Positions 8,817-49,481 of a DNA stretch of 64,000 nucleotides are shown here, in pieces. The notes under the pieces were generated by a model. That model ran no database searches, was not told where the DNA came from, and worked only from the letters and a program-made list of their open reading frames with translations. The stretch lies in contig NZ_SJOF01000002.1 of assembly GCF_004331255.1 (NCBI RefSeq), positions 310,001 to 374,000 of the forward strand, written 5' to 3'. How positions within the stretch are numbered: the stretch's first letter is position 1; each line of letters begins with the position of its first letter. Position numbers and translations under genes: made by a program. This DNA comes from Acinetobacter sp. ANC 4173. Its GTDB lineage: Bacteria; Pseudomonadota; Gammaproteobacteria; Pseudomonadales; Moraxellaceae.

Positions 8817-8830
8817 AAATGTTCCCCAAT

Positions 8831-9206: not shown

Positions 9207-9252
9207 CTTACTCACCTCATCTTATTTACTTGTAAAGTCATATCGCAAAACA

Positions 9253-32773: not shown

Positions 32774-32784
32774 TTCTAGCTGAT

Positions 32785-33219
32785 CTAGAATTTTACCAAA
32801 TCCCCTTTCAATGCCACGCCTGCTAGTGCCGTACCTTTCGCACATTGGTAGGTGGTGGTGCTACGTGTTTCATTCGATTTATAGAAACTCACCAGATTAG
32901 TCACAGCATTTGCACCATTGGCTTTGGCGGTATTTTGGAATTGAATCAATGCTGAACGGAGTACATGATCACATGAAGTTTCCGCAGACTTGGCAAAACC
33001 ATTGGTCTTTTTATTGGTCACTAAGCCCTTTTCAATCACCTTGCCGCCTGACTTGGTTCCTGCCAAATAGAATTTTACCGAGCCATCCAGCACACCATCT
33101 GCAACAGCACGATTCACTGCTTCTTTAAACTTAAAATCATACATTTGATCGGCAGCCTGAGCTGATGCAATCGCACCTAAAGACAACACAGCGACTACAC
33201 AGATTTTTTTGAATAACAT
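32785..33219 (-). CDS. Small exported protein at the end of the aryl polyene operon
   Basis: A 144-aa protein with a Sec signal peptide (MLFKKICVVAVLSLGAIASAQA, cleavage after AQA). Conserved parts include DGSVKFYLAG, VTNKKTNGFAKS, NGANAVTNLVSFYKS and GTALAGVALKG, and two cysteines (in TSCDHV and TYQCAK) that may form a disulphide. Relatives are often labelled excinuclease ABC subunit, which is wrong: there is no ATPase motif and it is exported. It lies 18 bp after the terminal ketosynthase and shares the operon terminator, so a periplasmic or outer-membrane role in polyene handling is likely. Biochemical function unknown. Confidence 0.75.
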   Translation of the reverse strand: MLFKKICVVAVLSLGAIASAQAADQMYDFKFKEAVNRAVADGVLDGSVKFYLAGTKSGGKVIEKGLVTNKKTNGFAKSAETSCDHVLRSALIQFQNTAKANGANAVTNLVSFYKSNETRSTTTYQCAKGTALAGVALKGDLVKF

Positions 33220-34458: not shown

Positions 34459-35183
34459 TAGATTAGGCCTCCATTGACTGAAATCACTTGGCGGGTGATA
34501 TAACTGGCATCATCACTACATAAAAACTTCACCGCTTTAGCCACTTCTTCCACCTGTCCCATGCGTTGCATCGGGATCATTTTCAAGGCGTGTTCTTTAA
34601 CTTCTTCCGTGACCATTTCGGTTTCAATCAAGCCCGGAGCAACACAGTTCACCGTGATTTTACGTTTCGCCAACTCTAACGCCAGTGCTTTGGTCGCACC
34701 AATCAAGCCCGCTTTGGCAGCACTATAGTTCACCTGACCACGGTTACCCATGATTCCTGACACTGAAGACAAGGTCACAATACGCCCACCTTTTTTCAAG
34801 CGGATCATTGGCATCATCAGGGGTTTCAGCACATTATAAAAACCGTTCAGAGAGGTCGAAACCACCTCATCCCAGTCTTCATCGGTCAATGCAGGAAATG
34901 CCCCATCTCTGGTCAGTCCGGCATTCAACACCGCACCGTAAAAAGCGCCATGCTGTGCCATATCTTGCTCCAAAATGGCGGCAATCTTTTCACGCTCATT
35001 CACATCGAACATCAGTACATGACTCGCCTGCCCAAGCGCTTGAATCTCCTGCGCCACTGCTTCGGCCTCAGATTGTCTTGAGCGAGCATGGACCGTGACA
35101 TCAAAGCCTGCCTTTGCCAACTCTAAAGCGATCGCTTTACCTATTCCACGACTCGAACCCGTGACTAAAACTCTTCTGTTCAC
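34458..35183 (-). CDS. 3-oxoacyl-ACP reductase (FabG-like SDR)
   Basis: A 241-aa short-chain dehydrogenase. It has the NADPH motif TGSSRGIGKA (8-17), NAG near 87, and catalytic N113, S140, Y153 and K157. It would reduce the 3-oxoacyl-ACP intermediate to 3-hydroxyacyl-ACP before dehydration, leaving a conjugated double bond per cycle. Coupled to its neighbours by short overlaps on both sides. It is pathway-dedicated by location; the housekeeping FabG should be elsewhere. Confidence 0.92.
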   Translation of the reverse strand: MNRRVLVTGSSRGIGKAIALELAKAGFDVTVHARSRQSEAEAVAQEIQALGQASHVLMFDVNEREKIAAILEQDMAQHGAFYGAVLNAGLTRDGAFPALTDEDWDEVVSTSLNGFYNVLKPLMMPMIRLKKGGRIVTLSSVSGIMGNRGQVNYSAAKAGLIGATKALALELAKRKITVNCVAPGLIETEMVTEEVKEHALKMIPMQRMGQVEEVAKAVKFLCSDDASYITRQVISVNGGLI

Positions 35184-35617
35184 ACTAATTTTCCAATGAT
35201 TTCATTCATATTTTCAGGCTCAAAGACACTCAACATGGCACTGAACCGATGTTCTTGATATTCAATTTCACAATGAAACTGCCCTAAACCCTCATGCAGA
35301 TAACTTTGTTCGACCCGAATCCGCACGGTTGTGCCCAAACTAAAATAGGCACAAGGCAACTGCATTTTACGCGTTCCCAATAAAAAACCAATTTTCGGTG
35401 GCAATCCCTGAGTTTGTCCTTTATAGCCTGCATAGACACTGATGGTCTGCGCCATCAGCTCAATGCTGCTCCATGTGGGCAAGCCTTCTGGCTCACAAAA
35501 CATCAAATCAGGCGTGATATGAAGTTCTGCAATGGCAAACGTATCATTGGCTTCAATCAGATGACTCACGAAAACCATCGGTTTCACATGTGGAATAAAC
35601 TGTACTGCATCCATCAT
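35180..35617 (-). CDS. Hotdog-fold 3-hydroxyacyl-ACP dehydratase (ApeP-like)
   Basis: A 145-aa single hotdog domain. The catalytic pair is H10 in FIPHVKPM and E53 in SSIELMAQT, in the FabA/ApeP style. It dehydrates 3-hydroxyacyl-ACP to the enoyl form. Since no enoyl reductase is encoded in the operon, double bonds are retained, as required for a polyene. Overlaps the ketoreductase and ketosynthase genes by 4 bp each. Confidence 0.85.
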   Translation of the reverse strand: MMDAVQFIPHVKPMVFVSHLIEANDTFAIAELHITPDLMFCEPEGLPTWSSIELMAQTISVYAGYKGQTQGLPPKIGFLLGTRKMQLPCAYFSLGTTVRIRVEQSYLHEGLGQFHCEIEYQEHRFSAMLSVFEPENMNEIIGKLV

Positions 35618-36810
35618 GACAAAGCTGTCCCGAAAATTAAACTGATATTGCTCCCCCCAAACGCAAACGAATTACTCATCGCATAGCGCATCGGTACAGC
35701 CAAATGCGGAGTAAGCACATAATTTTGCCCAGCCAACGCATCGTCCAATTTGCCTGCATGATGTAATGGCAGCCAGGATTGATCCAATAGAACCTGCTGG
35801 CAAATAAAGGCTTCGATTGCGCCCGCTGCCCCTAAGCAATGTCCCGTTTTATGTTTGGTACTGCTTAATGCCACAGTTGCATCTGAAAAAACGGTCTGTA
35901 CTGCCTTAATCTCCATCGCATCATTTTGCGGTGTAGAAGTCCCATGTAAGTTCAAATAACCAATATCGCCTGCTCCAAGCTGTGCCATACCTAAAGCTTT
36001 TTGCATCGCCTCCGCAGCCCCCCGTCCTTCTGGATGCGGCGCTGAAATATGCCATGCATCCATTGACTCACCACTCGAGAATAGCATCACAGGTGCAGGC
36101 GCTTTAGAGAGTAAAAACAGTCCTGCAGCTTCACCAATATTAATGCCGTCACGGTTGGCACCACAGGGCTGACAAACTCCGCTCGATAAGCTTTCTAAAC
36201 TATCAAAACCATTTAAGGTCAGCTTGCATAGGGTGTCGACTCCACCGACTAAGACAGCATCGGCCAAATCGACATTCAGCAAACGTTGCCCCGCCGCCAT
36301 CGCTTTGGCTGCCGAAGAACAAGCGGTAGAAATGGTATAGGCAGGCCCTTCCCAGCCCAAATACTGTTGTAAGGCTTTCGCTAAACTGCCCATTTCTTGT
36401 TTTTGGTGCTGTACAGACTGCGGTGCTGGCTGTTGAAACTGGGCTTTTAAGACCGGCTCATTATCCGCGATGCCTGAGGTTGACGTACCGATAATCACAG
36501 CGAGACGTTGTTTAGAAAACTGTGCAGTATAGGCACGAATCTCGGTTTCAATGTGTGCCAAAGCCGTCAGGGCAAAGCGTAGATTCCGTGAATCTGCACC
36601 GCTCAAGCTTTCAGGCACTGTTTGGAGCAAGGCTTGATCCGATGCGCCGACCCATATCGTACGCCCTGCAATCAGATCCTCTCGTTGCGATAAGGTATTT
36701 TCGGTGCTTGTTAAGGCATGTTGAAGCTCAGCGGCATTTTGTCCCAAAGCCGACAGCGCCGCACTGAACTGAATACCGACGGCTGAAACATGCTGTAGAT
36801 TTTTAGTCAT
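35614..36810 (-). CDS. Beta-ketoacyl-ACP synthase (second condensing enzyme)
   Basis: A 398-aa ketosynthase. Catalytic residues are complete: C164 in STACSSAAKA, H289 in NLHGTSTPQND and H324 in KTGHCLGAAG. The start at 36810 (MTKNLQHV) is chosen because AAGG lies 8 bp upstream; an ATG at 36828 is possible. It could initiate condensation from the aryl starter or form a heterodimer with the chain-length-factor protein. Overlaps the DUF3261 lipoprotein gene upstream by 8 bp. Confidence 0.9.
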   Translation of the reverse strand: MTKNLQHVSAVGIQFSAALSALGQNAAELQHALTSTENTLSQREDLIAGRTIWVGASDQALLQTVPESLSGADSRNLRFALTALAHIETEIRAYTAQFSKQRLAVIIGTSTSGIADNEPVLKAQFQQPAPQSVQHQKQEMGSLAKALQQYLGWEGPAYTISTACSSAAKAMAAGQRLLNVDLADAVLVGGVDTLCKLTLNGFDSLESLSSGVCQPCGANRDGINIGEAAGLFLLSKAPAPVMLFSSGESMDAWHISAPHPEGRGAAEAMQKALGMAQLGAGDIGYLNLHGTSTPQNDAMEIKAVQTVFSDATVALSSTKHKTGHCLGAAGAIEAFICQQVLLDQSWLPLHHAGKLDDALAGQNYVLTPHLAVPMRYAMSNSFAFGGSNISLIFGTALS

Positions 36811-37360
36811 GATTGTCGCCTTGATCATCTTCTAAAGTATTGCTCACGGCACTGATCACCATCTGATACGGCACTTGCAGATTATCCAGCTCAATTACCC
36901 CTTCATTTTGCTGAATTTTCAACACAGGCTGCTGCTGTATATAAATGGTATCGGCTTTCTGTACGACAGCATTTTGAGCAGCATGTAACGCAGCAAAATT
37001 TGGATAAGTTGCATACAGAATATCACGCACCACATAATCAAAAGGCAACAGTTTCATTTGATCAATCCGCTGTTCCACATGTACGTTTTGACCATCAAAA
37101 CTCAACTTAAATAACTGCTGTCCCGTAAGGCTAAGCGCCAGCATGTCAAGCGACTGTCCCCGTTGCTGCTGGTACAGTAAGAAGCTGAAACTCTGGGTTT
37201 TCCACTGCACTTCGATTTGGTCTTGGCGCTGGTAATTTTGTGCCACCCACAGCGGAGTCGCGAGTCCTTGCGCTTTGGGAATCCAACTTTGGCAGGCACT
37301 ACAGAGCAAAGCACTGGCTAAAACCCAACTGATGGTCTTTAAACACAACTTAAGTTTCAT
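36803..37360 (-). CDS. DUF3261 lipoprotein of the aryl polyene cluster
   Basis: A 185-aa protein with a lipoprotein signal (ASALLCSACQS; lipid-attachment Cys23). The mature part is beta-rich, as expected for a LolB-like fold (VQWKTQSFSFLLYQQQ, LALSLTGQQLFKLSFDG). DUF3261 lipoproteins occur regularly in aryl polyene and xanthomonadin-type clusters next to an MMPL exporter and a LolA-like protein, and the three probably form a dedicated route for moving the lipid product to the outer membrane. No Asp at +2, consistent with outer-membrane sorting. Confidence 0.82.
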   Translation of the reverse strand: MKLKLCLKTISWVLASALLCSACQSWIPKAQGLATPLWVAQNYQRQDQIEVQWKTQSFSFLLYQQQRGQSLDMLALSLTGQQLFKLSFDGQNVHVEQRIDQMKLLPFDYVVRDILYATYPNFAALHAAQNAVVQKADTIYIQQQPVLKIQQNEGVIELDNLQVPYQMVISAVSNTLEDDQGDNHD

Positions 37361-38651
37361 CAGTCAGCAACTCTTTCTGTTGTTGTGCTTCTCGGCAATA
37401 TTCTGCCAAGGTGCTCAAGCGTTGCTTGGCATTACGATGAATCGGGTTGCTCGTATCCCATGCATAACCTGCCAGTAAAGATGCAATCATACGGCGGATT
37501 TTTTCATCCTGCTGAGTCGAAAACACCACATCCTGAAACTCTCCTGAATACCATGACTCGACATAGGCACGGAATACTTGAATGCCTTTACGCAGTGGCT
37601 TTTCGTATTGCTCCATCCAATCTACTGCCTGACCTTGCAGCACTTGCTCGACCAATGGCACCGCTAGACTGGAAGATTTCAATGCAATCGTTACACCTGA
37701 GGAAAAGACAGGATCTAGAAACTCACCGGCATTACCGAGTAGTGCATAGTTTTCAGATGCCAAATGTTTCACATCGGCAGAGTAGCCCACCAAAGTACGT
37801 ACAGGAGTATCATGTTTGGCATGGCGCAGCACATGCGACAAGCTAACATCATCGGCTAAAATACGTTTCTGCAAAGCTTCTAAATCATAGTCGGCACTGC
37901 CGTCATAACCGTATTTTTCAAAGAAATCTTGCTCCGCCACAATACCAAATGAAGAACGTCCATCAGCAAAGGGAATCAGCCAATACCACGCACGATGGTC
38001 TTTTTCATGTACGGTAATTAAGATTTTCTCACGGTCAAACTCAGGGTCATCCAACAAACCGTCTTCAATATGGGTAAAGACCGCACGGCGCACAGGAAAG
38101 TCCGACGGGCTTTCTAAATCGAGAAACTTCGGCAAAATGCGGCCAAAACCACTGGCATCCAAGAGGAATTTGCCTTGAATTTGGTAGCTATTGCCCTGTT
38201 CATCTTTCACCGTCAAAATCGGCTGTGTAGATGCCACATCGACGGCCAAAACTTCATGACCAAAACGGATATCTGCGCCCATTTTCTCGGCTTGCTGAGC
38301 TAAGAGCTGGTCAAAGTTGGCTCGTCGTACCTGCCATGTGGTGCCTGGGCCTTCACTAAACTTTTGGGTAAAGTCATAAAAACTGCGCTGCGTGCCTCTT
38401 AAAAAAGCCGCACCATTTTTAAACTGAAAGGCATATTCGTCGGCATGGGCACGCACCGTCTCCAATAAACCCGCTTCTTCTAAAAACACCATACACTGCG
38501 GCAATAAAGACTCGCCGATGGAAAACCGCGGAAAATATTGCTTTTCGATGACTGTGACTTGATGGCCTTTTTGACGCAGCAAAGCCGCGGCCGAGCTACC
38601 TGATGGTCCCGCCCCAATAATTAAAACATCTGTCTGTTGCATGGTGCTCAT
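37350..38651 (-). CDS. FAD-dependent oxidoreductase (tryptophan-halogenase-like)
   Basis: A 433-aa flavoprotein with an N-terminal Rossmann motif (LIIGAGPSGSSAA at 10-22), a GESLLP segment near 48-53 and FAD-binding GNAGEFLDPVFSSGV near 315. Overall like the geranylgeranyl reductase / halogenase-like family. The tryptophan halogenase motif WxWxIP is not seen (WYWLIPF occurs instead near 220), so halogenation is not supported. Such enzymes occur in aryl polyene clusters, where they probably modify the aryl head or polyene; exact reaction unknown. Overlaps the DUF3261 gene by 11 bp. Confidence 0.82.
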   Translation of the reverse strand: MSTMQQTDVLIIGAGPSGSSAAALLRQKGHQVTVIEKQYFPRFSIGESLLPQCMVFLEEAGLLETVRAHADEYAFQFKNGAAFLRGTQRSFYDFTQKFSEGPGTTWQVRRANFDQLLAQQAEKMGADIRFGHEVLAVDVASTQPILTVKDEQGNSYQIQGKFLLDASGFGRILPKFLDLESPSDFPVRRAVFTHIEDGLLDDPEFDREKILITVHEKDHRAWYWLIPFADGRSSFGIVAEQDFFEKYGYDGSADYDLEALQKRILADDVSLSHVLRHAKHDTPVRTLVGYSADVKHLASENYALLGNAGEFLDPVFSSGVTIALKSSSLAVPLVEQVLQGQAVDWMEQYEKPLRKGIQVFRAYVESWYSGEFQDVVFSTQQDEKIRRMIASLLAGYAWDTSNPIHRNAKQRLSTLAEYCREAQQQKELLTDET

Positions 38652-38669
38652 TGCACTGTACCCTTTGAC

Positions 38670-40994
38670 TCAGCTCTTTGGCTGATATTGTTGAACCACC
38701 ACATGTTTTGCATCGGAGGATGTAAAAAGTGTGGCATAAATAAATGAAAAAATAACGCCCAGTAATACCGTTAAGCCGAAACTGTGAATGGCGTAGGTAT
38801 GACTGAAAGACAACAAGCCAAAACTAAAGAAAGTCGACATCATACACAGGAACAAAGCCATACCCACCACCTGCGGGTGATCATGTCCGTGACGGTAGAA
38901 AATCGCATAGTCCACCCCTATTCCAATGATTAGGAAGGTACCCATAATGCTGAATAAATTAATCTCGACACCCAGCCATGCTTGAATCGCAAACGTGGTC
39001 ATTAAGGCCATACTGACAGGTAACACTAAAGGCAGAATGGATTTTTTGCCATACAGTGCCCCTAAGCCAATGGCTAAAATCAGCAACGCACTGAGTAATA
39101 GCCACTGTGCCTGCTCACGGTGCTGTTTAAACAATTCAGACAGTTGATGAACGGGACGTAACAGTTGTACATCAGCATTTTCAAGCTGTTGCACGGCTTT
39201 GACGTCATGCACATTTTGCAGCATCACCAAACGCTGCGTCGGACTCATCTGCAAAAAATGCAGGGGGTGATCTTTAAAAACTGCTTCGGTCAGCAACGGT
39301 TGGTCTTTTAAATGGGTTTGCCAGTTTAAAACATCGACTGCGTTGAGCTGTAATGCTTGCGCATATTCCACCAAAGCGGGCTGAGGAATCGCCTGCAACA
39401 TCACAATATTGTGTTTTTGCTGCTCAAGCGATGGAATCCACTGCCCTAAAGCTTGTACAGCATCCAACTTGCCAGCCTGCTGCAAGGGCACAAGTTTTGC
39501 CAGTAGCTGCTGTTCATGCTGCTCTAATTCTGCTGGGGTTCGGCCCTGTACCACAAAGTATTCACTGCTTTGCTGTTGCATAAAACGCGTACGAATATAT
39601 TGATCTTCCTGCTTTAAGGTGGCATCCATACTTTGTAAATTACGGATGTCATCATTGCTTTTCAGGAAGAAGAGGCTGCTACCGGTCAGCAGTAGAATCA
39701 GTGCAATCATGCCATAACGTAGCGTGTTGCGGCTCTGCACATAACTGCGTGCTTTGCCAATAAAGCCCAAAGCACGTATTGCAGGTTCCGCATTTAGCGC
39801 AGGCAAACGTGGCAGCAATAAAATACTGGTCACCCATGCGGCGCTCAGTCCAACCATGGAAAAGACCGCAATCTGCTTAAAGCCCGGAAATGGGGTAAAA
39901 CTCAGTACCACATAGGCCAATAGCGTGGTCATCAACCCCACAAATAAACTCGGCAATAATGGTTTTAAAACAGTAAATCCATCGATCTGTCGGTGCTGAG
40001 ACTGCATGGCCATAAAGTAAAATGAAAAATCGACACAGACCCCAATCAAACTGGCACCAAAGACCAGTGTCATCAGGTGAATTTCACCAAAAACCCAATA
40101 CGTCACCGCAAAGGCCACCAAACTGCCTGTACCGACCGCAACCATTTCCGTCAGCATCGGGCGTATCGAATGGAAGCCAAACCAGACCAGCAGTAAAATC
40201 CCGATGGTCGAACCCACGCCAATAGTCGAGATTTCCTCTTTGGCAGAATTGGTGCCAAACTGTGCAAACAGTAACGTGCCTGTCCAGTGCGGTTTAACCT
40301 GCAACTGGTTGAGCTGCCGATTGATATTCTGAATAAATGCAGCAGTCTGCTCTTGGTAGGCAATGTTATAGGGACTGCTATTGAGCTGAAGCACCATCAG
40401 GCGCGAGATGCCCTGCTCATCACGAAGCGTGGCAAAACCCTGCTCTAAATTGATATCGGCATTGTTTTGTAAAGCACTTAACCCCACTGCATAACGCGGA
40501 AACAGCAATAAAGGATCTTGCTTCAGCATTTCAGCCGTGATTGGCATGCCCGGACTCATCAGTTGTAATAAGCCCTGCTCCATCAACGCAGCAGTATCCT
40601 GCCCTTGCACAATCTGTTGATCTGTCTTGGATAATAGCCCTGCTTTGTGCTGATACAGCGCTTGGGCAAATTGATCAGGATCAAGCTGTGGACGAACAGG
40701 TAAAAATAGCTGACTTTGGTCGGCTTGGGTTTTGAATACTTGCGTTGCCTGTTCTAATTGCTGATCCGTTTTGGCATCCAACACCACAAAAACTTTGTCA
40801 TTTAACTGCTGACTGACATATTGCTGTGCTTGTTCCAGATGAGCATCTTGATGGGCCTCAGGCAGCAAAGCAAAAATATTGGTCTCAATCTTGATGCCTT
40901 TATTCAGCCAAGCCACGCCCAGTGCCAAAGCAATGACACACAGCACCAACAGCCACAGGGCGCTAAACTTATTTTGCCAATTGGAAAAGCGCAT
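38670..40994 (-). CDS. MMPL-family (RND) exporter of the aryl polyene cluster
   Basis: A 774-aa RND-superfamily protein. It has a first transmembrane helix (LWLLVLCVIALALGVAWLN), a periplasmic loop of about 220 residues, five more helices (GTLL, IGVGSTIGILLLVWFG, VFGASLIGVCVDFSFYF), a repeat helix near 425, a second periplasmic loop and a final helix bundle (FLIIGIGVDYAIFYRHG). The paired G-x-x-x-D-Y/F motifs are typical. With the LolA-like and DUF3261 proteins it probably extracts the polyene lipid from the inner membrane. Overlaps the LolA-like gene by 26 bp. Confidence 0.9.
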   Translation of the reverse strand: MRFSNWQNKFSALWLLVLCVIALALGVAWLNKGIKIETNIFALLPEAHQDAHLEQAQQYVSQQLNDKVFVVLDAKTDQQLEQATQVFKTQADQSQLFLPVRPQLDPDQFAQALYQHKAGLLSKTDQQIVQGQDTAALMEQGLLQLMSPGMPITAEMLKQDPLLLFPRYAVGLSALQNNADINLEQGFATLRDEQGISRLMVLQLNSSPYNIAYQEQTAAFIQNINRQLNQLQVKPHWTGTLLFAQFGTNSAKEEISTIGVGSTIGILLLVWFGFHSIRPMLTEMVAVGTGSLVAFAVTYWVFGEIHLMTLVFGASLIGVCVDFSFYFMAMQSQHRQIDGFTVLKPLLPSLFVGLMTTLLAYVVLSFTPFPGFKQIAVFSMVGLSAAWVTSILLLPRLPALNAEPAIRALGFIGKARSYVQSRNTLRYGMIALILLLTGSSLFFLKSNDDIRNLQSMDATLKQEDQYIRTRFMQQQSSEYFVVQGRTPAELEQHEQQLLAKLVPLQQAGKLDAVQALGQWIPSLEQQKHNIVMLQAIPQPALVEYAQALQLNAVDVLNWQTHLKDQPLLTEAVFKDHPLHFLQMSPTQRLVMLQNVHDVKAVQQLENADVQLLRPVHQLSELFKQHREQAQWLLLSALLILAIGLGALYGKKSILPLVLPVSMALMTTFAIQAWLGVEINLFSIMGTFLIIGIGVDYAIFYRHGHDHPQVVGMALFLCMMSTFFSFGLLSFSHTYAIHSFGLTVLLGVIFSFIYATLFTSSDAKHVVVQQYQPKS

Positions 40995-41610
40995 TTTCCG
41001 CAGCCGTTAAAGTTTGAGGTTGAGCCGTTTGCTGGCTAAAACGAATGATGGTGCGGTTATTGGCTTGTTCCAAAATCGTAATACGGTCTACATAACGCTG
41101 ACCTTGCGCATCGACTTGGACAAAAAGCTTTTTAAATAGACTGCTTTTCGGCGTCAAGCTGACATTCCACTGCGTCGGACTGTAATTGGCAGACACCACA
41201 TTAAAGTTTTTAGCGAGGGCCGCTTCATTGCCTGACATCAACTGTAAAAACATCGTTGCAACAGAGCCATACGGAGTTTTGTCAACTTCAATTTGAGTGG
41301 AAGTACGCTGCGTCTTTTGTACCAACTTACGCGGTGTCACCACCAAATCGGCTTTGACTGGACTTTGAATCTGCCACAGCACACCTTGGTTTTTGCTGAA
41401 CAGCACCGTGCCTTTGGACACATAGGTTTTATTCAAAGAGGCCAGTTTTTTCTGCTGCTCAAATTGGGCACGCACCACAGGCGTTGCACCGAGCTGAGTA
41501 AACACCTGCTTCAATTCAGTATTTTGTGCATTCACTGTGGGAGCAAGCAAAGTCATCGCACTGGCTGTACACGCAACCAAAATCGACTGAGGGAATTTGT
41601 ATCGAATCAT
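40969..41610 (-). CDS. LolA-like outer-membrane lipoprotein carrier of the aryl polyene cluster
   Basis: A 213-aa periplasmic protein with signal peptide (LVACTASAMTLLAPTVNA, cleavage after NAQ or VNA) and LolA-like fold (VVRAQFEQQKKLASLNK, GTVLFSKNQGVLWQIQSPVKADLVV). The start at 41610 has GGAG 10 bp upstream and fits a signal peptide; a longer frame from 41646 would overlap the thioesterase gene. It is a pathway-specific paralogue of LolA, expected to shuttle the polyene lipid across the periplasm from the MMPL exporter to the outer membrane lipoprotein. Confidence 0.85.
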   Translation of the reverse strand: MIRYKFPQSILVACTASAMTLLAPTVNAQNTELKQVFTQLGATPVVRAQFEQQKKLASLNKTYVSKGTVLFSKNQGVLWQIQSPVKADLVVTPRKLVQKTQRTSTQIEVDKTPYGSVATMFLQLMSGNEAALAKNFNVVSANYSPTQWNVSLTPKSSLFKKLFVQVDAQGQRYVDRITILEQANNRTIIRFSQQTAQPQTLTAAENALFQLAK

Positions 41611-41617
41611 GCTTACA

Positions 41618-42037
41618 TTACTCCGCTTTAAACTCAGGCCATGCATTTAAACAGTCCAACAACACCTGTGGGGATTGGAAGCACATTTCACGTTTTTCAA
41701 TATGTACCGCCACTTGCGAAGTAAAGCCCTTAGTCAACTTTCTGCCCGAAACCGCATCAAAAATCAGATATTCAATTTTTAGGCGATTTTCCCACTCTTT
41801 CAGAACGGCGCGCACACGAATTTTTTGCTCAAACTCAATGCCTTGCACATAACGCACATAGCTTTCAATTACCGGCCATGCATAGCCTGAGTCACGCATT
41901 TGATTATAGTTATAGTGAAATTGATCCAGCAGTTTGCAACGCGCAATTTCAAAATATTTTAAATAATGACCGTGCCACACCACATGCATGGTATCGACAT
42001 CATGAAAAGGCACCTCAATAATTACATCAGCATACAT
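41618..42037 (-). CDS. Acyl-CoA/ACP thioesterase (4HBT hotdog)
   Basis: A 139-aa hotdog thioesterase. The active-site Asp is in FHDVDTMHVVWHGHYLKYFEIAR, the typical 4-hydroxybenzoyl-CoA thioesterase pattern. Start at 42037 (MYADVI) is preferred because AGGA lies 7 bp upstream; ATG 42043 has the site directly against it. In aryl polyene clusters such an enzyme may release or edit ACP-bound intermediates. Lies between the ammonia-lyase and the LolA-like gene with short spacing. Confidence 0.87.
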   Translation of the reverse strand: MYADVIIEVPFHDVDTMHVVWHGHYLKYFEIARCKLLDQFHYNYNQMRDSGYAWPVIESYVRYVQGIEFEQKIRVRAVLKEWENRLKIEYLIFDAVSGRKLTKGFTSQVAVHIEKREMCFQSPQVLLDCLNAWPEFKAE

Positions 42038-42046
42038 GCTCATTTC

Positions 42047-43579
42047 CTATGAATATTGAACAGCAATGCTGTCTAACAGTTCTAAATGCTCAAAGCGATT
42101 GACCAATGCTTGAAGCTCTTGTTGTAAAGGACGATCTTCCGCTACATAGGTGAAGCTCTGAAGCACCCACTGTTGAAATGCTGTTAAAACAGGGCTGAGT
42201 TCTGTATCTACAGCTTTAAGTTTAACCGCCTGAACCGCTGCACAACTGAGTGCCGCAATCACTTGTTCGGTCAGGGTAATCACACGGCTGGCATCACGCG
42301 CAGCAATGGTACCCATACTGACTTTGTCTTGATTATGACATTCGGTTGAGCGTGAGAAAATCGACGCTGCGAGTGTTTGTTTCAAGGCTTCTGCCGTCCA
42401 TGCCGAAACCCCAATTTGCACCGCTTTAAAGCCATGATTCAGCGGTAAACGCTCAGGACTGGAACCGGTTAAATTGCGCGGCAAACCATTGTTCATTTTA
42501 TAGTCGACCAACTGCGCCAACTGACGATCCATTAAATCGGCAATATTCGCGATCATAATTTTCAGGCTGTCCATGGCTTGGGCAATATGTCCGCCATAGA
42601 AATGGCCACCATGCAGTACACGCAGGTTCACTGGGTCAATCAATGGGTTGTCGTTACTTGAATTCAGCTCATTTTCAATAAACTGACGCAACCAGACTTT
42701 AGAATCTTCAAACACCCCAATCACATGCGGTGCACAGCGCAGTGAATAACGGTCTTGCAGGCGCGAACTTTGATGCGCGGTCTGCACTTCACTGTTTAAC
42801 CAGTCACGTAATTGAGCTGCAATATGTTGCTGTCCCGGATGTGGTTTTTGCGCAAACAAGACTTCATCAAAATGGCTTGGATTCCCTTCTAAAGCCAAAA
42901 CATTCAGTGCGGTAATCAAGGTACTGGCAAAAGAAATCTGTTCGGCTTTTTTATAGTTCAGGCAAGCAATCGCGGTCATGACTGCTGTACCATTCATCAA
43001 GGCCAACCCTTCTTTAGGACGCATTACCAAAGGCTGCAAACCTTTTTCGACATACACTTGTGCAATCGGTACGATCTGACCTTGATAGTACACGTCGCGC
43101 TCACCGACCAAGGCCCCAGCGATATAAGACAAAGGTGTCAAGTCACCACTGGCACCCACCGAACCTTCTGAGGGAATCACAGGAATTACATCTTCATTCA
43201 GCATCCAGACTAAACGCTGCAACAAGGCATGCGAAACACCCGAATAGCCACGCGCCAAAGAACATAAACGCACCACCACAACAGCACGTGCGGTAATTAA
43301 GTCTAAGTTTTGTCCCATGCCACAGCCATGAAAACGCGACAAATGTAGTGGTAGCTCATGCACTTGATGGGCTGGAATTTCGACTAAGCACGAGTCTCCA
43401 TAGCCCGTGGTCACGCCATAAATGACGCCTTCGTCTTGCAACAGTTGATCGAGGAAATCTGCGCCACGTTGAATCAATGCTGTCCATTCAGCAGAGGCAG
43501 GCAATGCCACCAGTTTTTCCTTACGCGCTACAGCCACAACATCTTCAATACTGAGCGGAGTTTCCCCAACAATTAACAC
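42047..43579 (-). CDS. Aromatic amino acid ammonia-lyase (HAL/PAL/TAL family)
   Basis: A 510-aa enzyme of the MIO-dependent ammonia-lyase family. The MIO-forming triad is A143-S144-G145 in GSVGASGDLTPLSYIAG, and the catalytic tyrosine is Y54 in VIYGVTTGYG. The substrate-selectivity pair, at the place where histidine lyases have S-H, tyrosine lyases H-L and phenylalanine lyases F-L, reads F83-H84 (SRFHGCGMG). In the aryl polyene operon the likely job is making a cinnamate-type starter from tyrosine or phenylalanine, rather than histidine breakdown: no hut genes are nearby. Starts with GTG, preceded by AAGGA at 8 bp. Confidence 0.88.
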   Translation of the reverse strand: MLIVGETPLSIEDVVAVARKEKLVALPASAEWTALIQRGADFLDQLLQDEGVIYGVTTGYGDSCLVEIPAHQVHELPLHLSRFHGCGMGQNLDLITARAVVVVRLCSLARGYSGVSHALLQRLVWMLNEDVIPVIPSEGSVGASGDLTPLSYIAGALVGERDVYYQGQIVPIAQVYVEKGLQPLVMRPKEGLALMNGTAVMTAIACLNYKKAEQISFASTLITALNVLALEGNPSHFDEVLFAQKPHPGQQHIAAQLRDWLNSEVQTAHQSSRLQDRYSLRCAPHVIGVFEDSKVWLRQFIENELNSSNDNPLIDPVNLRVLHGGHFYGGHIAQAMDSLKIMIANIADLMDRQLAQLVDYKMNNGLPRNLTGSSPERLPLNHGFKAVQIGVSAWTAEALKQTLAASIFSRSTECHNQDKVSMGTIAARDASRVITLTEQVIAALSCAAVQAVKLKAVDTELSPVLTAFQQWVLQSFTYVAEDRPLQQELQALVNRFEHLELLDSIAVQYS

Positions 43580-43584
43580 AAGAC

Positions 43585-44499
43585 TTATCCTTTATTCCAA
43601 AAATTATAAAAATTAAACCATTGATAGGGCGAGCGTATGCAATGCTGTTCCAACAACTCCACATACTGTCGTGTGGTCTGTTGCATGGCCTGTAAACGCT
43701 CTTTACGTGGCCAATTTAATTGCTCCGCCACGGAGTGAATATGCACTTCAAAATGTGCATCGACTCGATAGCAGAACACTGCCAACACAGGAGCTTTCAA
43801 CAAACTGGCCAAAATCCATGCGCCTTGCGGCCACAGCGCTTGCTCACCTAAAAAAGCAACCGATTGTACCCGATCCGACTGCACGGGTACGCGGTCAGCC
43901 GCCACAATCACCCATTCACCCTGATCCAATTTATCCTGCAAAATCAATGCTGTTTCGATTCCCAACTCATCCACCGAAACCAAATTAACATCGGCATGTT
44001 CATTTAGTTTTTTTAAAAATGCATTGAACTTGGTGGCATGTTTTTGATACACCAACACATTAATTTTCTGCGAATGCTCAGCTTTGATGGCACGTAGCAA
44101 TTCAATATTGCCAAAGTGCGACACCACAATTACTGCACCTTTTTGATAGTGCGAACGAAAGTGCGCATGACCATGCAGCTTTAAGTTCTGCTCAGGAATA
44201 TGCCCGAGCCAACCTTCAATTTTATCTAAAATACATTCGCCAAATTGCATCAAATGCGTATAGCTGTGCCAAAGCTGTGGCTCAGCCTGAAACGGTGACT
44301 GTGCACCTGCAAAATGATGCAGTTTTTTTAAGTACAACAGAGAAGCCTGACGCGCGGTATTGGAAAAAAGCCAGTACCATAAAATCACAAAATACAAGAT
44401 GACCCGGCACAGCCAGCGCCCACCCAAACGGTAGAAACCCAGCATCAGCATCAGCGGCAACATCCCGCCCCGCTCTTTTACGGCGCTCCATTTCTGCAT
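43585..44499 (-). CDS. Lysophospholipid / lipid A acyltransferase-like protein (LpxL-type)
   Basis: A 304-aa membrane-bound acyltransferase. It has an N-terminal hydrophobic helix (CRVILYFVILWYWLF) and the catalytic H-x-x-x-x-E motif in VVSHFGNIELLRA near residue 135. Members of this family in aryl polyene clusters are thought to attach the polyene acyl chain to a lipid or sugar carrier. Flanked by the glycosyltransferase and the ammonia-lyase with 5-15 bp spacing. Confidence 0.82.
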   Translation of the reverse strand: MQKWSAVKERGGMLPLMLMLGFYRLGGRWLCRVILYFVILWYWLFSNTARQASLLYLKKLHHFAGAQSPFQAEPQLWHSYTHLMQFGECILDKIEGWLGHIPEQNLKLHGHAHFRSHYQKGAVIVVSHFGNIELLRAIKAEHSQKINVLVYQKHATKFNAFLKKLNEHADVNLVSVDELGIETALILQDKLDQGEWVIVAADRVPVQSDRVQSVAFLGEQALWPQGAWILASLLKAPVLAVFCYRVDAHFEVHIHSVAEQLNWPRKERLQAMQQTTRQYVELLEQHCIRSPYQWFNFYNFWNKG

Positions 44500-44514
44500 A
44501 TGCGTCTCTGACCC

Positions 44515-45249
44515 TTAGCCTTTGACTTTCTGATAAATCAGTTTGGGGAACCTCAGCAGCATGCCACCTAACAAGCGACTATGCGCACGCGCCATGCCCA
44601 GATTGTCCCGCCAAACATCAAAATGTGAAATGCCACCTTCAGGGTAAACCACATGCGTAGCCAGATTGATAAACGGCACATTATCCCATTTCAACCGCAC
44701 CAAAATCTCCGAGTCAAAGCCCATCCGCGGTTGAAACTTGGCTGTGTTTAGAATGTTCACTGTCTGCGACAGAGGATAAACGCGGAAGCCACACATGCTG
44801 TCTTTAATCTCAAAAGACAGGCTGTTAATCCACACCCAAATGTGCGTTGCATAACGGCCATAGAGACGTTTTTTCGGAACAGTCGCATCAAAAATCGGCT
44901 GACCAATAATCATGGCTTCAGGATGCTGGATAGATGTGTCTAAAAAGCGTTGCACATCCTGCCAGTCATGTTGTCCATCGGCATCCAGTTGCAAGGCATG
45001 ACTATAGCCACATTGAAAGGCATGCTTGAGCCCTGTGATCACCGCCTGCCCCTTACCCTGATTATGGGTATGTTCAACCAAATCAACCACTGGGTAGTTA
45101 TGTGCGAGCTGATGTAACACTGCTGTACAAGCGGCATCACTGCCATCATTCACCATAATAATGGGTAGCTCAAAAGAGCTTAAATGTGACAGTAACGCAG
45201 CCAAATAATGCGGATGGTTATACACAGGGATCACAAAGCAGTGTTTCAT
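44515..45249 (-). CDS. Family 2 glycosyltransferase
   Basis: A 244-aa GT-A fold glycosyltransferase with the N-terminal CFVIPVYNHPHYLAALL and IIMVNDGSDAACT, and the metal-binding D-x-D in LDADGQHDWQD near residue 88. No membrane helices. It may glycosylate the lipid carrier or aryl head of the polyene. Common in aryl polyene clusters, next to the LpxL-like acyltransferase. Confidence 0.87.
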   Translation of the reverse strand: MKHCFVIPVYNHPHYLAALLSHLSSFELPIIMVNDGSDAACTAVLHQLAHNYPVVDLVEHTHNQGKGQAVITGLKHAFQCGYSHALQLDADGQHDWQDVQRFLDTSIQHPEAMIIGQPIFDATVPKKRLYGRYATHIWVWINSLSFEIKDSMCGFRVYPLSQTVNILNTAKFQPRMGFDSEILVRLKWDNVPFINLATHVVYPEGGISHFDVWRDNLGMARAHSRLLGGMLLRFPKLIYQKVKG

Positions 45250-45262
45250 TTTTTCTCTCGGC

Positions 45263-46924
45263 TTAAACGTCTACAGGGACAGCAAACAGCAAACGTCCTG
45301 ATGCCAATATTTTGTCATGATTTTTCAGTTCAAAACTGATCTTATGCGCTTTACGGCTGAGCACCAGTTCCACCGTTTGATAGGGTTGGATCAGTCCTTG
45401 AAATTTTAACTGCTCAAAACCATTGCACCACAGTAAATCTGCCCAGTTTTGTTTGGCAAAATGTTGAATAAATCCAATTTGCCCTACACCTGGATAAATC
45501 GGGAAGTTTGGGAAATGCCCTTTAAAGCACTCCAGCTCAGGAATAAATTCCAAAGCATAACTGATCTGCGTATCCTGAGATTGCTGCATCAACACCACAG
45601 GCAAGCTCATCGGTTGAAAGAGCGATTTTAAATACTGTTTATTCAATTTCGATTGTGCATTTTGTGGCATTTGCGTTAAGAAACGCCACTGCCGCGGAAT
45701 CGCGATACTTTCCAGTTTCTGTTGCAATTGTTTTTTCAGTTGTGCGGTAAAGGCGGCTTTGCCCTTTTCAGTGAGCAGCGCCCGAGCATCCTCGGTCAAC
45801 ACTGCCACCACCGCCAACATCTGACGCTGTTCTTTTTCATGAATTAAGACATGGCACTGCTGTATTTCAGCCAACTCAGCGATTTTTGCTTCAATCGCAT
45901 CGAGACTTAAACGCTTTTCTTCAAGTTTGACAATGCGATCCAAACGCCCCAACAACTGAAACGAACTTTTGGGATTATCTGCATCCACGACCTGTACTTT
46001 ATCTCCGGTCAAAATCCAATCCGCACTAAAGGCATGGTTGGTTTTGACGGCTAACTCTTGCTGCTCAGTGCACTTAATTTCGACATTGGCGAAGGGTGCC
46101 CATAGCGCATCATCTGCCTGACGGTGAGCAATCCCGCCTGTTTCAGAACTACCAAATACTTCAGTAATCGGACGGTTCAGTAAAGGACGCACGCCTGCAT
46201 CCAACTTTCCACCAGAGGAATAGACCCTATAGCAGTCTTGCAATACCACATCTGTGGTCCAGCGCTTCAGCAAAGCGGGACTGGAAATTACATAATTGGG
46301 CAGCTGCACATGGGCAATTTTCTTTTGAAGATCGACCACATCTTCAGGGAAAGCCAGTTGTTTTTGGTAAAAACTGCGTCCACTGGCTAAGGGCCATAAC
46401 AACTTAAACAACAAACCATAAATATGTTGATGGCTCACCGTAGCAATCGCAACCGCTTGCTCAGGCAAATCAAAACTGGCTTCCAAACCACTAACTTCAT
46501 TGAATAATTGTTGCAAGCTGCGCGGAATCTTTTTCGGTTGCCCTGTTGAACCCGAAGTATAGAAATACAGCTGTGCCTGATTGAGAAAGGCCGCATCAAA
46601 TTGAAGCTCGAAGGTTGACGCTGCTGTCGACGGCAAACGCTTTAAAAAATAAATCTGCTGTTCAGCCAGTTCTTTTTCTAAGTCGCTGACCCGATGTGGG
46701 GGTAACAACACTTGCTTGCCTGCTTGTAAGGCCGCAAACAACAACACTAAAAACTCATAACTGTCTTGTTGCCAAAGCGCCCATACAGGCTGTTCCAACT
46801 GCTGAATTTGCGCAGCTTGCTCAGCCACATCCAACCAAAAAGTGTGAAAGGACACAAAACTAGAGTCCGCCTGAATACACAGGGGACGCGATGAATGCAG
46901 ATGGTGCTGAAAATGACAAGACAT
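45263..46924 (-). CDS. AMP-ligase fused to a hotdog dehydratase (aryl starter activation)
   Basis: A 553-aa two-domain protein. Residues 1-430 are an adenylate-forming enzyme: P-loop YTSGSTGQPKKIPRS near 122-136, GSSETGG near 258, LTGDKV, and the C-terminal lysine motif QSKLNKQYLKSLF. Residues about 445-553 are a FabZ/ApeI-like hotdog with ECFKGHFPNFPIYPGVGQIGF (catalytic His about 472). The ligase presumably activates an aryl acid and loads it on an ACP; the hotdog domain gives the pathway a second dehydratase. No ribosome-binding site is seen before the ATG. It is separated from the upstream gene by 77 bp, the largest gap in the operon. Confidence 0.88.
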   Translation of the reverse strand: MSCHFQHHLHSSRPLCIQADSSFVSFHTFWLDVAEQAAQIQQLEQPVWALWQQDSYEFLVLLFAALQAGKQVLLPPHRVSDLEKELAEQQIYFLKRLPSTAASTFELQFDAAFLNQAQLYFYTSGSTGQPKKIPRSLQQLFNEVSGLEASFDLPEQAVAIATVSHQHIYGLLFKLLWPLASGRSFYQKQLAFPEDVVDLQKKIAHVQLPNYVISSPALLKRWTTDVVLQDCYRVYSSGGKLDAGVRPLLNRPITEVFGSSETGGIAHRQADDALWAPFANVEIKCTEQQELAVKTNHAFSADWILTGDKVQVVDADNPKSSFQLLGRLDRIVKLEEKRLSLDAIEAKIAELAEIQQCHVLIHEKEQRQMLAVVAVLTEDARALLTEKGKAAFTAQLKKQLQQKLESIAIPRQWRFLTQMPQNAQSKLNKQYLKSLFQPMSLPVVLMQQSQDTQISYALEFIPELECFKGHFPNFPIYPGVGQIGFIQHFAKQNWADLLWCNGFEQLKFQGLIQPYQTVELVLSRKAHKISFELKNHDKILASGRLLFAVPVDV

Positions 46925-47001
46925 ATAATTTGTTTTTAAAACCGTATTTCTAATCGCGATAGTTCGAGGCCACTGTTTCAGTTGCCCTGACCGAAAGGCT
47001 G

Positions 47002-47556
47002 TTATTTCTGTGCCTGATGTAGTCGCTGTTGACGTTTACGCAACACAAACTCACCCAGTAACAGTCCACCCATCAAGACGTAAGAGATCAAGCCGTTATA
47101 CAACACCCAAATCTTCATTGGTGCGAAAAAAACAGTGATCAACGCGATGACTGCATTGATGCAAAAAAAACCACACCAAACTTTGGTCACTTGACGGGTC
47201 CATTCTACCCCTTCTTTGGGTAGATTGGGCTCTACCAAACGTGCAAAACGTTCAATCATTGAAGGCGGTCGAATCAAGGTGCTGGCAAAAATAAACAGCG
47301 CCCCAAGACTCATAAAGACAGGATAGAGTTTCAGCCACGCATGATCTTTTAAAATCAAACTCAGCCCGCCACATAAAATGGCAAAACCTGTCAAGGGCCA
47401 CAGCAAAGCATTACCCTTACTTAATAGACGCAGGACGCCCAGTGCAATCAATACAGCACTGACCCAGACATACTGTCCATGTGCCAAAGCATAAGCCACA
47501 AAAAAAGGATAGAGGATCAATCCGACTCCTACTACCCCTTTTAAAATGTTGTTCAT
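47002..47556 (-). CDS. Small membrane protein of the aryl polyene cluster (COG4648-like)
   Basis: A 184-aa protein with five or six hydrophobic helices (GVGLILYPFFVAYALA, VWVSAVLIALGVLRLL, LYPVFMSLGALFIFAS, WCGFFCINAVIALITVFF, ALMGGLLLGEFVLRK-like end). Its ATG overlaps the ACP stop (ATGA). Proteins of this shape recur in aryl polyene and related clusters near the ACPs, but their role is not known. Confidence 0.75.
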   Translation of the reverse strand: MNNILKGVVGVGLILYPFFVAYALAHGQYVWVSAVLIALGVLRLLSKGNALLWPLTGFAILCGGLSLILKDHAWLKLYPVFMSLGALFIFASTLIRPPSMIERFARLVEPNLPKEGVEWTRQVTKVWCGFFCINAVIALITVFFAPMKIWVLYNGLISYVLMGGLLLGEFVLRKRQQRLHQAQK

Positions 47557-47801
47557 GCAGCAGACATATTCTGAATCACGACCACCACATCTTGCACGGT
47601 ACGCACATTTTTAAAGTCTTCAGGATTGACTTGTTTACCTGTCAGTTCTTTAATTTTAACAACTAAATCAATGGCATCAATACTATCAACATCAAGATCT
47701 GAAGCTAAGTTTGATTCTAACTGCACCTCTTCAGGTTCAATTTCAAACAGATCTTCCATCCATTCACGTAATTTTTCTAACACGGTTTCTTGTGCAAGCA
47801 T
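47553..47801 (-). CDS. Acyl carrier protein 1
   Basis: An 82-aa ACP with the 4'-phosphopantetheine attachment Ser40 in DLDVDSIDAIDLVVKI. Acidic, single domain. Preceded by GAGG. Carries the growing polyene or starter. Sits in tandem with a second, distinct ACP as is usual for aryl polyene clusters. Confidence 0.93.
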   Translation of the reverse strand: MLAQETVLEKLREWMEDLFEIEPEEVQLESNLASDLDVDSIDAIDLVVKIKELTGKQVNPEDFKNVRTVQDVVVVIQNMSAA

Positions 47802-47810
47802 AGCAACCTC

Positions 47811-48071
47811 TTATGCTGTTTTCTGTGCTTCAACCAAAGCCACTAAACTTTGAATTGATTTAAAATATTCTTTGGTATCTGCTGACTCTGCATTCAGATG
47901 AATGCCATAACGCTTTTTCAATGCCAAACCCAATTCTAAAGCATCAATCGAGTCCAAACCCAAACCATCACCAAACAAAGGCGCATCTGTATCAATATCT
48001 TCAATACGGATGTCTTCAAGGGCAAGGACATCAATAATCATTTGCTTTAATTCGTCAGCAAGATTGCTCAT
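47811..48071 (-). CDS. Acyl carrier protein 2
   Basis: An 86-aa ACP with phosphopantetheine site Ser41 in GLGLDSIDALELGLALK. It differs from the first ACP in helix III and in the GDGLG loop, which suggests a division of labour (starter versus extender). Overlaps the acyltransferase gene upstream by about 17 bp. Confidence 0.93.
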   Translation of the reverse strand: MSNLADELKQMIIDVLALEDIRIEDIDTDAPLFGDGLGLDSIDALELGLALKKRYGIHLNAESADTKEYFKSIQSLVALVEAQKTA

Positions 48072-48867
48072 TTACGGATAACTCTTGGTTAAAAAACCAC
48101 TGTAATTGTTGATTTAATTGACGCACATTTTTGGGATTGACCGTTACATCATCCAATACGTCTTCCACTCGGATCGCATCCAACACTTTCACATGGATAT
48201 GGAAAGGCTGTTCTGGAATGTGATACCACTTTTCATTTTTGGTCAGGGTTGATGGCGTGCAGGTAATCAACACAGGGCGAATCGGCACCCCTGCACGCAG
48301 GGCAATATTGGCCGCACCACGCTGAAAGTCATTCAGCTGCTCACCTTTTGCTGTCCGCGTCCCTTCAGGAAAGATCAACAAAGACGCCGCATGATCCTGC
48401 TGTAGTTTGTGTACGCAGTCCTGAATAAATTGTTCAGAACCTGCATTTAAAATATAGCCCGCACTTTGCACTGGGCCTTTGGTAAATGGATTCGACCACA
48501 GCGCCTGCTTGACCACACAGTTTGCTTGTTCCATTAAACCAATTAAAACCACTACGTCAATCAGTGTCGGATGATTGGCAATCACCAACTCCTGCTGGCT
48601 GTGCTGTAGTTTATCTAAGCCTTCAACCGTATAGGTCATGATGCCCAGTTTCACCATCATTTCGGTGAAACCTTTAAAACTGTGCTTAATCACCTTCTGA
48701 GTGCGCTGCTTTCGAAGTTCAAGGTCTGCTGAACTCAGCTTGACCAGCGGTGCAATCAAACCACCAATCGCCACGCCGCCTAAGCCAAAACTGGCAAAAC
48801 TAAACCCTGTCGCCCCAACGCGCCAGACATAGTTGGCTTTTTGCTTGATTCGATTTAATTTCAGCAT
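48055..48867 (-). CDS. PlsC-family 1-acylglycerol-3-phosphate-type acyltransferase
   Basis: About 270 aa. It has the PlsC motifs: catalytic H-x-x-x-x-D in IANHPTLIDVV near residue 98, and FPEGTRTAKG near 168. A hydrophobic N-terminal segment (GATGFSFASFGLGGVAIGGLI) anchors it to the inner membrane. It probably acylates the lipid carrier of the polyene. Start could be GTG 48876 or ATG 48867; both overlap the previous gene. Confidence 0.87.
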   Translation of the reverse strand: MLKLNRIKQKANYVWRVGATGFSFASFGLGGVAIGGLIAPLVKLSSADLELRKQRTQKVIKHSFKGFTEMMVKLGIMTYTVEGLDKLQHSQQELVIANHPTLIDVVVLIGLMEQANCVVKQALWSNPFTKGPVQSAGYILNAGSEQFIQDCVHKLQQDHAASLLIFPEGTRTAKGEQLNDFQRGAANIALRAGVPIRPVLITCTPSTLTKNEKWYHIPEQPFHIHVKVLDAIRVEDVLDDVTVNPKNVRQLNQQLQWFFNQELSVNEQSC

Positions 48868-49481
48868 TTCGTCCACGCTTCAGATTCAGTTTGCTCAGGA
48901 TTATTCCAAAACGTGTTAAATGCTAAAGCCTGCTGATAAGCTGGCGTTGAATCCGTATGCTTTGGCGTCAATATCAAATTGGCAGGCGCTAACGAAATAA
49001 TCGCTACCATCGCAAAAGTAGCAAATGGCTGATGCTCGATATAAATTTCCGACAAGGCTTCATCATAATACAACAGCAAAACATGACGGGCTTCAGGCAT
49101 TGTTTTTAGCCACGCATAGGCTTCAATCAGCCCATCATTCCACGAACCTGCCAAACTGGTCGCAGGTGTCGTATCCTGACATAAAATGGAATAGAGGCCT
49201 GAAATTGCATTATGTACCGACGTTGAAAATTGAGTCGGTGAAGGGGTTTGCTCGCTTAACACATCTTCTAGAATATTCAGTGTTTTTGCTTCATCGCCAT
49301 ATTGTGACACCCAAACAATATAATCGACATTACGGGTGTCCAAAGTCTGCATGGCACTATTCAACGCCAGTTTTGCAAGATTCGATAAGCGTCGGCGTTG
49401 CATCGCAGGAATTTTTTCTATAGCTGGTAATTCTTGATCAACCGAACTCATATTCAAGCGGGATATGTGGAGTTGCATCAT
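48861..49481 (-). CDS. Beta-ketoacyl synthase-like chain length factor
   Basis: A 206-aa protein like the N-terminal half of ketosynthases, of the PF13723 (CLF) type found in aryl polyene clusters. It shows FSTSVHNAISGLYSILCQ and SLAGSWNDGLIEAYAW, but lacks the active-site Cys and the His pair and ends before a full ketosynthase fold. Expected to pair with a complete ketosynthase and set the polyene length (ApeC-like role). First gene of the operon, with a promoter about 40 bp upstream. Confidence 0.82.
   Translation of the reverse strand: MMQLHISRLNMSSVDQELPAIEKIPAMQRRRLSNLAKLALNSAMQTLDTRNVDYIVWVSQYGDEAKTLNILEDVLSEQTPSPTQFSTSVHNAISGLYSILCQDTTPATSLAGSWNDGLIEAYAWLKTMPEARHVLLLYYDEALSEIYIEHQPFATFAMVAIISLAPANLILTPKHTDSTPAYQQALAFNTFWNNPEQTESEAWTKC

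Follow-up and report, generated by a model that had tools for sequence, protein, structure and literature searches.

A conserved F/Y-H-type ammonia-lyase of an Acinetobacter aryl polyene operon is most likely a tyrosine ammonia-lyase

Which amino acid does the ammonia-lyase encoded in an aryl polyene (APE) operon of Acinetobacter sp. ANC 4173 deaminate, and does its product start the pigment? We examined this locus in the window, meaning here the whole 64,000-nucleotide stretch of contig NZ_SJOF01000002.1 that was analysed. A first-pass annotation had placed at 42047-43579 an ammonia-lyase with a hybrid selectivity motif, and had proposed that it supplies the aryl starter while leaving the acid fully open. 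The comparison described below favours tyrosine: judged by sequence, both the enzyme and its operon are of kinds already described, and the lyase is most likely a tyrosine ammonia-lyase (TAL).

The ammonia-lyase gene proved real. Its open reading frame lies on the minus strand (no strand had been given before), starts with GTG, and translates into 510 amino acids, and the plus-strand frame across the same positions contains many stops. Pfam Lyase_aromatic (PF00221) matched residues 9-470 with an E value of 1e-156 and 522.8 bits, above the cut-off of 27.3. Alignment placed the MIO triad at A143-S144-G145; this Ala-Ser-Gly triad, the domain match, and Y54 assign the protein to the MIO/PF00221 family. 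The residues Y54, N196, Y278, R281, and F327, which we take to be catalytic positions, were identical in all eight aligned proteins, including the tyrosine aminomutase of S. globisporus C-1027 (L189). The active site of MIO lyases is assembled from three chains. As judged from these residues, the encoded MIO-type lyase of aromatic amino acids is intact.

The pair F83-H84 was present as claimed, within LSRFHGCGMG when numbered from the GTG codon. His84 aligned with His in the S-H motif of HutH, and Gln417 occupied the position at which the genome's own HutH has Glu, a residue that in HutH belongs to the NQED motif. The C-terminal ExHNQD signature, presumably of the PAL type, was also present and agrees with a place on the PAL/BagA side. 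Ile389 aligned with Tyr415 of the S. globisporus aminomutase, a residue that we assume to lie near the substrate phenol.

Family models were then compared by score. The best NCBIfam match of the lyase was BagA_FevW (NF041222), at 411.8 bits against a cut-off of 1000, closely followed by histidine ammonia-lyase (HAL) models at 397.5 and 392.1 bits. The latter value is that of the hutH model, whose cut-off is 539.15 and on which the genome's own HutH, encoded on the same contig, reached 734.2 bits. Scores also fell below the cut-offs of the phenylalanine ammonia-lyase (PAL) model (315.4 versus 519.15 bits, with F-H instead of F-L), the FlxA model (343.9 versus 700 bits), and the tyrosine 2,3-aminomutase model (300.3 versus 501 bits), for which the S. 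globisporus enzyme gave 1022.6 bits as a positive control. His at the second selectivity residue, the mark of BagA-like TALs, was found as H84. In two of four other clade members tested, a HAL model outscored the BagA model. The best PDB matches of the lyase were tyrosine aminomutases (E 2.5e-72).

We next examined the selectivity pair among relatives, defined as distinct sequences with at least 50% identity and more than 430 matched residues. Of these 165 sequences, 153 carried F-H and 12 carried Y-H, and both the His at the second selectivity residue and Gln417 were found in all 165. The 50% line sits in a gap, as no match occurred at 40-52% identity in the Acinetobacter and class-wide draws, and the phylum draw listed only matches with E <= 1e-75, namely, 56% identity or more; because the relatives were chosen by identity, conservation of the motif is partly expected. 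In a redundant table, in which the same genes are repeated, all 148 rows of at least 50% identity agreed on His and Gln417. The 20 rows below 50% comprised 14 S-H with Glu, one S-H with Gln, two H-L (one gene at two loci), and one each of F-L, A-V, and A-L. That single S-H row with Gln, among 15 S-H rows, is the tyrosine aminomutase L189. Of the 14 S-H rows with Glu, the genome's own HutH is the one that was run against the hutH model. Gln417 therefore separates the orthologue group from the histidine-lyase kind at the sequence level, and a histidine lyase is disfavoured because 14 of 15 S-H rows have Glu where the clade has Gln.

Orthologues were detected at identities of at least 73% in 75 of the 149 Acinetobacter genomes, the one studied here among them, in 15 of 321 genomes of a class-wide draw (own included) at 53% or more with the next match at 39%, and in 41 of 397 other genomes of the phylum draw at E <= 1e-75; these three draws overlap. 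The pair does differ from S-H, H-L, and F-L, as first proposed, and not by chance. It is, in the sequences compared, a fixed trait of a widespread orthologue group and not an oddity. Accordingly, we rejected the idea of a new or hybrid selectivity motif, since F-H or Y-H is the norm of this clade and F-H is already in print. According to part of a 2017 paper (PMC5651878), F-L (PAL), Y-H (known TAL), and F-H ("possibly intermediary") motifs are interspersed, with F-H grouped beside Y-H as TAL-like or possibly intermediary. Equating S-H with histidine proved unsafe as well, given that the aminomutase L189 is S-H and that excerpts of PMC3992019 class motif 1 of FlxA as HAL-like.

For phylogeny, the 165 distinct sequences were thinned at 88% identity to 52 representatives (42 F-H and 10 Y-H) and combined with 12 outgroup rows. 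All 52 formed one group with support of 98/98, within which Y-H required three changes. Viewed from the Pseudonocardia outgroup, Y-H rows were basal in the clade and occurred once more inside it. Long-branch warnings were raised for L047, L050, L052, L060, L188, and L189. The nearest outgroup was L188, a Pseudonocardia plasmid protein with 40% identity that keeps GCG and ECHNQDK and carries F-L; being one sequence on a long branch, its exact place in the tree is unsure. Its gene lies at 7926-9551 of plasmid pLS2-2, beside ketosynthase, FabG, methyltransferase, and F420-type genes. From its sequence, this F-L relative is likely a phenylalanine lyase of another pathway.

Across the clade, F and Y interchange at position 83 in the aligned sequences, while His84 and the operon slot stay constant. 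Because the nearest outgroup carries F-L, the PAL motif, position 84 looks like a switch, and the simplest reading of the alignment would be that Leu versus His at 84 corresponds to the change between Phe and Tyr, with Phe or Tyr at 83 a minor variation. Excerpts of PMC5651878 associate the strict TAL activity of BagA with a His as second selectivity residue. In the tyrosine lyase of Rhodobacter, however, the first-residue substitution His89Phe turns the preference from Tyr to Phe, as given in part of PMC9002059, and this counts against position 84 as the switch because there the first residue does the switching. The code of S-H, H-L, and F-L misreads the F/Y-H clade.

The proposed polyene-operon setting was borne out. 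A run of 18 same-strand genes extends over 33238-49481 of the minus strand, with the lyase ninth in the direction of transcription (Table 1). Its largest internal gap is 77 nt, the others are at most 18 nt, and many genes overlap; we infer that the run forms one operon. Pfam, NCBIfam, and PDB searches identified the components of an aryl polyene cluster, namely, a KS/CLF pair, two acyl carrier proteins (ACPs), an acyl-ACP synthetase, a ketoreductase, two dehydratases, a thioesterase, and a LolA/RND/LolB-like export set. The ApeH-ApeI fusion is a candidate for loading the aryl acid onto ACP.

Table 1. Genes of the aryl polyene run, in the direction of transcription
Gene product	Coordinates	Strand	Remarks
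ApeC, chain-length-factor-like ketosynthase (Ketoacyl-synt_2)	48861..49481	-	
ApeD, 1-acylglycerol-3-phosphate-type acyltransferase	48055..48876	-	
ApeE, acyl carrier protein	47811..48071	-	
ApeF, acyl carrier protein	47553..47801	-	
ApeG-like membrane protein (IspA/IspZ-like)	47002..47556	-	
ApeH-ApeI fusion: adenylating acyl-ACP synthetase and dehydratase domain	45263..46924	-	
Family 2 glycosyltransferase	44515..45249	-	matches part of E. coli ApeJ
Acyltransferase, lipid A acyltransferase family	43585..44499	-	matches part of E. coli ApeJ
Aromatic amino acid ammonia-lyase	42047..43579	-	PF00221, F83-H84, A143-S144-G145, Q417
ApeK, hot-dog thioesterase (4HBT_2)	41618..42043	-	3 nt from lyase
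ApeL, LolA-like carrier	40969..41646	-	
ApeM, RND/MMPL-type transporter, HpnN-like	38670..40994	-	no Pfam match at E 0.001
FAD-dependent halogenase-like oxidoreductase	37350..38651	-	
ApeN, DUF3261 LolB-like lipoprotein	36803..37360	-	
ApeO, ketosynthase	35614..36828	-	
ApeP, dehydratase	35180..35617	-	
ApeQ, ketoreductase	34458..35183	-	best PDB match 7caw (A. baumannii ApeQ)
ApeR, ketosynthase	33238..34458	-	NCBIfam NF006587, above cut-off

For the FAD-dependent enzyme of the run, the best NCBIfam match was the halogenase CmlS (147.7 bits, below the cut-off) and the second was a geranylgeranyl reductase family. Its PDB matches were headed by 3nix, a flavoprotein of unstated role, followed by the halogenases 8zop and 3i3l. 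It contains WYWLIP and FKNGAAF, which in our estimation resemble halogenase motifs; given these motifs, the pigment head may be halogenated.

The G+C content of the run was 46.1%, compared with 39.4% in the remaining window, and this higher value may reflect horizontal gain. Beside apeR, the minus-strand frame 32785-33219 encodes a 144-aa protein with a start that by eye resembles a signal peptide; no Pfam or NCBIfam match was found for it at E 0.001. At the same place, the A. baumannii record CP035931.1 (L185) has a gene of equal length (435 nt) annotated as an excinuclease, an annotation that is probably wrong, followed by a phosphopantetheinyl transferase gene. In the window, a stretch of about 870 nt (31915-32784) downstream of the run contained no ORF of 70 aa or more, and the only PF01648 match in this genome lay on another contig (C27).

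To describe the operon slot beyond this genome, 123 loci with flanks were compared, comprising 80 Pseudomonas-side records (the best 80 of 583), 18 and 20 genomes, and 5 plasmid-collection records. These best 80 were all named Pseudomonas or Stutzerimonas, except one labelled only gammaproteobacterium, a bias due to the query alignment, whose first row is close to that group. The apeK gene lay directly downstream of the lyase in 122 of the 123 loci. When each place was assigned to its best-matching query only, apeM and apeQ were each found in 121 loci, apeO and apeP in 120, apeF and apeG in 118, apeD, apeE, and apeR in 117, and apeC and apeHI in 114, and the FAD enzyme was found in 109, being missing from 14 within the stretch fetched. 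A looser count, in which related ketosynthases can substitute for each other, gave 114-121 of 123 for the core genes. The methyltransferase ApeB of E. coli was matched in only six of the 123 loci, three of them being L222 (G779), L223 (G525), and L224 (G617); an ORF test found ApeB in none of 20 loci, and a translated search added L062 and L068, which the ORFs had missed.

A few loci departed from this pattern. L236 (G761) was the sole lyase orthologue of the 123 without an adjoining apeK or APE operon, the second half of the run was absent from L067, and L147 lacked apeO, apeQ, and apeR in a stretch that ends with its contig. In a Pseudoalteromonas record the gene order was nearly identical, with ApeH and ApeI split. 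On the 200-kb A. junii plasmid CP077416.1 (L190), a lyase 96.1% identical to that of the window was flanked by matches to core ape genes, a record suggesting that the APE operon may move on plasmids.

APE operons that lack the lyase were examined on a tree built from ApeR of 41 operons, of which 35 carry the lyase and 6, including that of E. coli, do not. For this tree, 20 of 61 loci with less than 45% identity or short matches had been dropped, namely, the lyase-bearing L063, L066, L219, L225, and L238 and 15 lyase-less loci. The six lyase-less rows needed six changes, at least five of them forced by well-supported branches, and labels shuffled on the tree needed a mean of 5.7, indicating no clustering of the lyase-less rows. 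E. coli was sister to the lyase-bearing L222 and L224. A class-wide protein search gave no match to the lyase in four of the five lyase-less genomes other than E. coli and only a HutH-like match in the fifth (G297). Such scattered absence, whether by loss or by gain, is as expected of an optional entry point.

We propose, with a probability of about two in three, that the lyase is an F/Y-H-type tyrosine ammonia-lyase that would provide p-coumarate for APE synthesis, with loading by ApeH and an optional entry one cycle downstream. Its family, intact catalytic residues, conserved motif, operon placement, and scattered absence were observed, whereas we infer the substrate, the ability of ApeH to load coumarate, what F83 and H84 do, and the bypass. 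In the proposed pathway, L-tyrosine would be deaminated to p-coumarate through the MIO group of the lyase, and ApeH(-ApeI) would adenylate p-coumarate and load it onto ACP. The type II set of ApeO-ApeC, ApeQ, ApeI/ApeP, and ApeR would then extend p-coumaroyl-ACP to the polyene, to be exported through ApeL, ApeM, and ApeN. Within the active site, His84 would contact the phenol hydroxyl, and Phe83, or Tyr in other members, would pack on the ring, roles presumed from tyrosine lyase and aminomutase structures.

In this scheme, p-coumaroyl-ACP is the compound that 4-hydroxybenzoyl-ACP yields once it has been extended, reduced, and dehydrated a single time, and the lyase would thus open a second way into the pathway, one cycle later than UbiC/4-hydroxybenzoate. 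As p-coumaroyl-ACP is a first-cycle product, the lyase could be gained or lost without any other change to the operon; as both starters give the same p-hydroxyphenyl polyene, the pigment head cannot tell them apart. This one-cycle equivalence was not met in the portion of the APE literature consulted. Coumarate would not be strictly needed, because a UbiC homologue is present in the window's genome and A. baumannii enzymes make polyene in vitro from 4-hydroxybenzoate-loaded ACP. The family score of ApeH proved uninformative as a marker of the starter: the 4-coumarate ligase model gave 86.7 bits in the window, 79-100 bits in five lyase-bearing relatives, and 75-102 bits in four lyase-less operons, scores that do not tell the two kinds of operon apart and lie far below the cut-off of 334.7 throughout. 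A literature search of open-access papers found no substrate assay of an F-H APE lyase.

Other substrates and fates of the product were weighed against this proposal. Were the enzyme a phenylalanine ammonia-lyase, cinnamate would give an unsubstituted phenyl head, perhaps later hydroxylated or halogenated. The C-terminal signature on the PAL/BagA side and the halogenase-kind FAD enzyme of the operon speak for this, as does Phe83, a PAL-type residue in the part of PMC9002059 considered; yet all 165 relatives have His and none has Leu as the second residue, 12 have Tyr in place of Phe, and His at that position is treated as a TAL mark in the excerpts of PMC5651878. Moreover, in the texts available, 4-hydroxybenzoate is the starter assigned to or tested with the E. 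coli and A. baumannii APE enzymes, and we regard a phenylalanine lyase as unlikely. It is also conceivable, though quite unlikely, that the coumarate formed is an indirect supply, its side chain being shortened by host enzymes so that ApeH loads 4-hydroxybenzoate, the compound from which A. baumannii APE was made in vitro according to part of the published record. The genome has a match to NF006588 (PRK09120) at 505.1 bits (cut-off 276). We take this model to represent a p-hydroxycinnamoyl-CoA hydratase/lyase. However, no shortening gene lies among the 18 genes of the run, the UbiC homologue could already provide 4-hydroxybenzoate, and a 4-hydroxybenzoate 3-monooxygenase match (630.8 bits) would drain it.

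The tyrosine aminomutases that head the PDB matches raise the thought of a tyrosine 2,3-aminomutase, and the halogenase-like enzyme in 109 of 123 of these operons that of another ring-substituted substrate, for example, DOPA or tyrosine bearing a methyl group or a halogen. Both are very unlikely: the aminomutase score of 300.3 bits is well short of 501, the APE line has no obvious need for a beta-amino acid, and in 14 of the 123 loci the fetched stretch contains no FAD enzyme. A duplicate histidine ammonia-lyase would agree with the alignment of His84 to the S-H His of HutH, but it was rejected as highly improbable given F-H, Gln417 in place of Glu, a hutH score under the cut-off (392.1 < 539.15 bits), a separate HutH above it (734.2 bits), and the APE context. 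The earlier view that the enzyme is no ordinary histidine lyase and feeds the aryl starter stands, the latter as the most likely role.

The substrate of the lyase would decide how a very widespread class of bacterial pigments is primed in a sizeable share of producers, because the gene occurs in 75 of 149 Acinetobacter genomes and 41 of 397 phylum genomes. We give even odds to a broader proposal, that Acinetobacter APE, including that of A. baumannii, is primed in the cell by p-coumaroyl-ACP and not 4-hydroxybenzoyl-ACP, that the two entries are interchangeable, and that E. coli-like lineages, having lost the lyase, came to rely on the ubiquinone precursor instead. If so, work on the A. baumannii operon with 4-hydroxybenzoate may have used a second-choice starter. 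The lyase makes the question of APE priming in Acinetobacter directly testable.

Several named systems resemble this locus. For APE clusters of the Aliivibrio fischeri APE_Vf kind, an ammonia lyase has already been named as a characteristic gene in Pseudomonas genome papers (parts of PMC8719888 and PMC5851621), so its presence in many APE clusters has been published before. The TAL of bagremycin and ferroverdin synthesis (BagA/FevV) shares His at the second selectivity residue with the lyase (excerpts of PMC5651878), and Y-H stands as a known TAL motif in the same text. Its pathway differs, involving p-vinylphenol (part of PMC6692506). FlxA of flexirubin synthesis in Chitinophaga pinensis is a TAL with a kcat/KM of 7728 versus 7.7 M-1 s-1 for Phe, and as in the proposed pathway it works with a ligase to begin an aryl polyene from tyrosine, but it is HAL-like at motif 1, not F-H, and supplies a CoA ligase (text excerpts of PMC3992019).

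The A. baumannii operon of CP035931.1 has an identical gene order, an acyltransferase gene and a thioesterase gene flanking that of the lyase, and its lyase and ApeQ are 85.3% and 87.1% identical to those of the window. In vitro, A. baumannii APE enzymes formed polyene from ACP loaded with 4-hydroxybenzoate (part of PMC8041823); in passages of two A. baumannii structure papers, the starter is 4-hydroxybenzoate, and no word of their main texts begins with "lyase". The APE operon of E. coli CFT073, whose starter has been assigned to UbiC-made 4-hydroxybenzoate (part of PMC8253772), has the same core ape genes as the window and carries the methyltransferase ApeB, which only 6 of 123 lyase-bearing loci match, whereas the lyase is absent and the apeJ and apeK homologues lie 3 nt apart.
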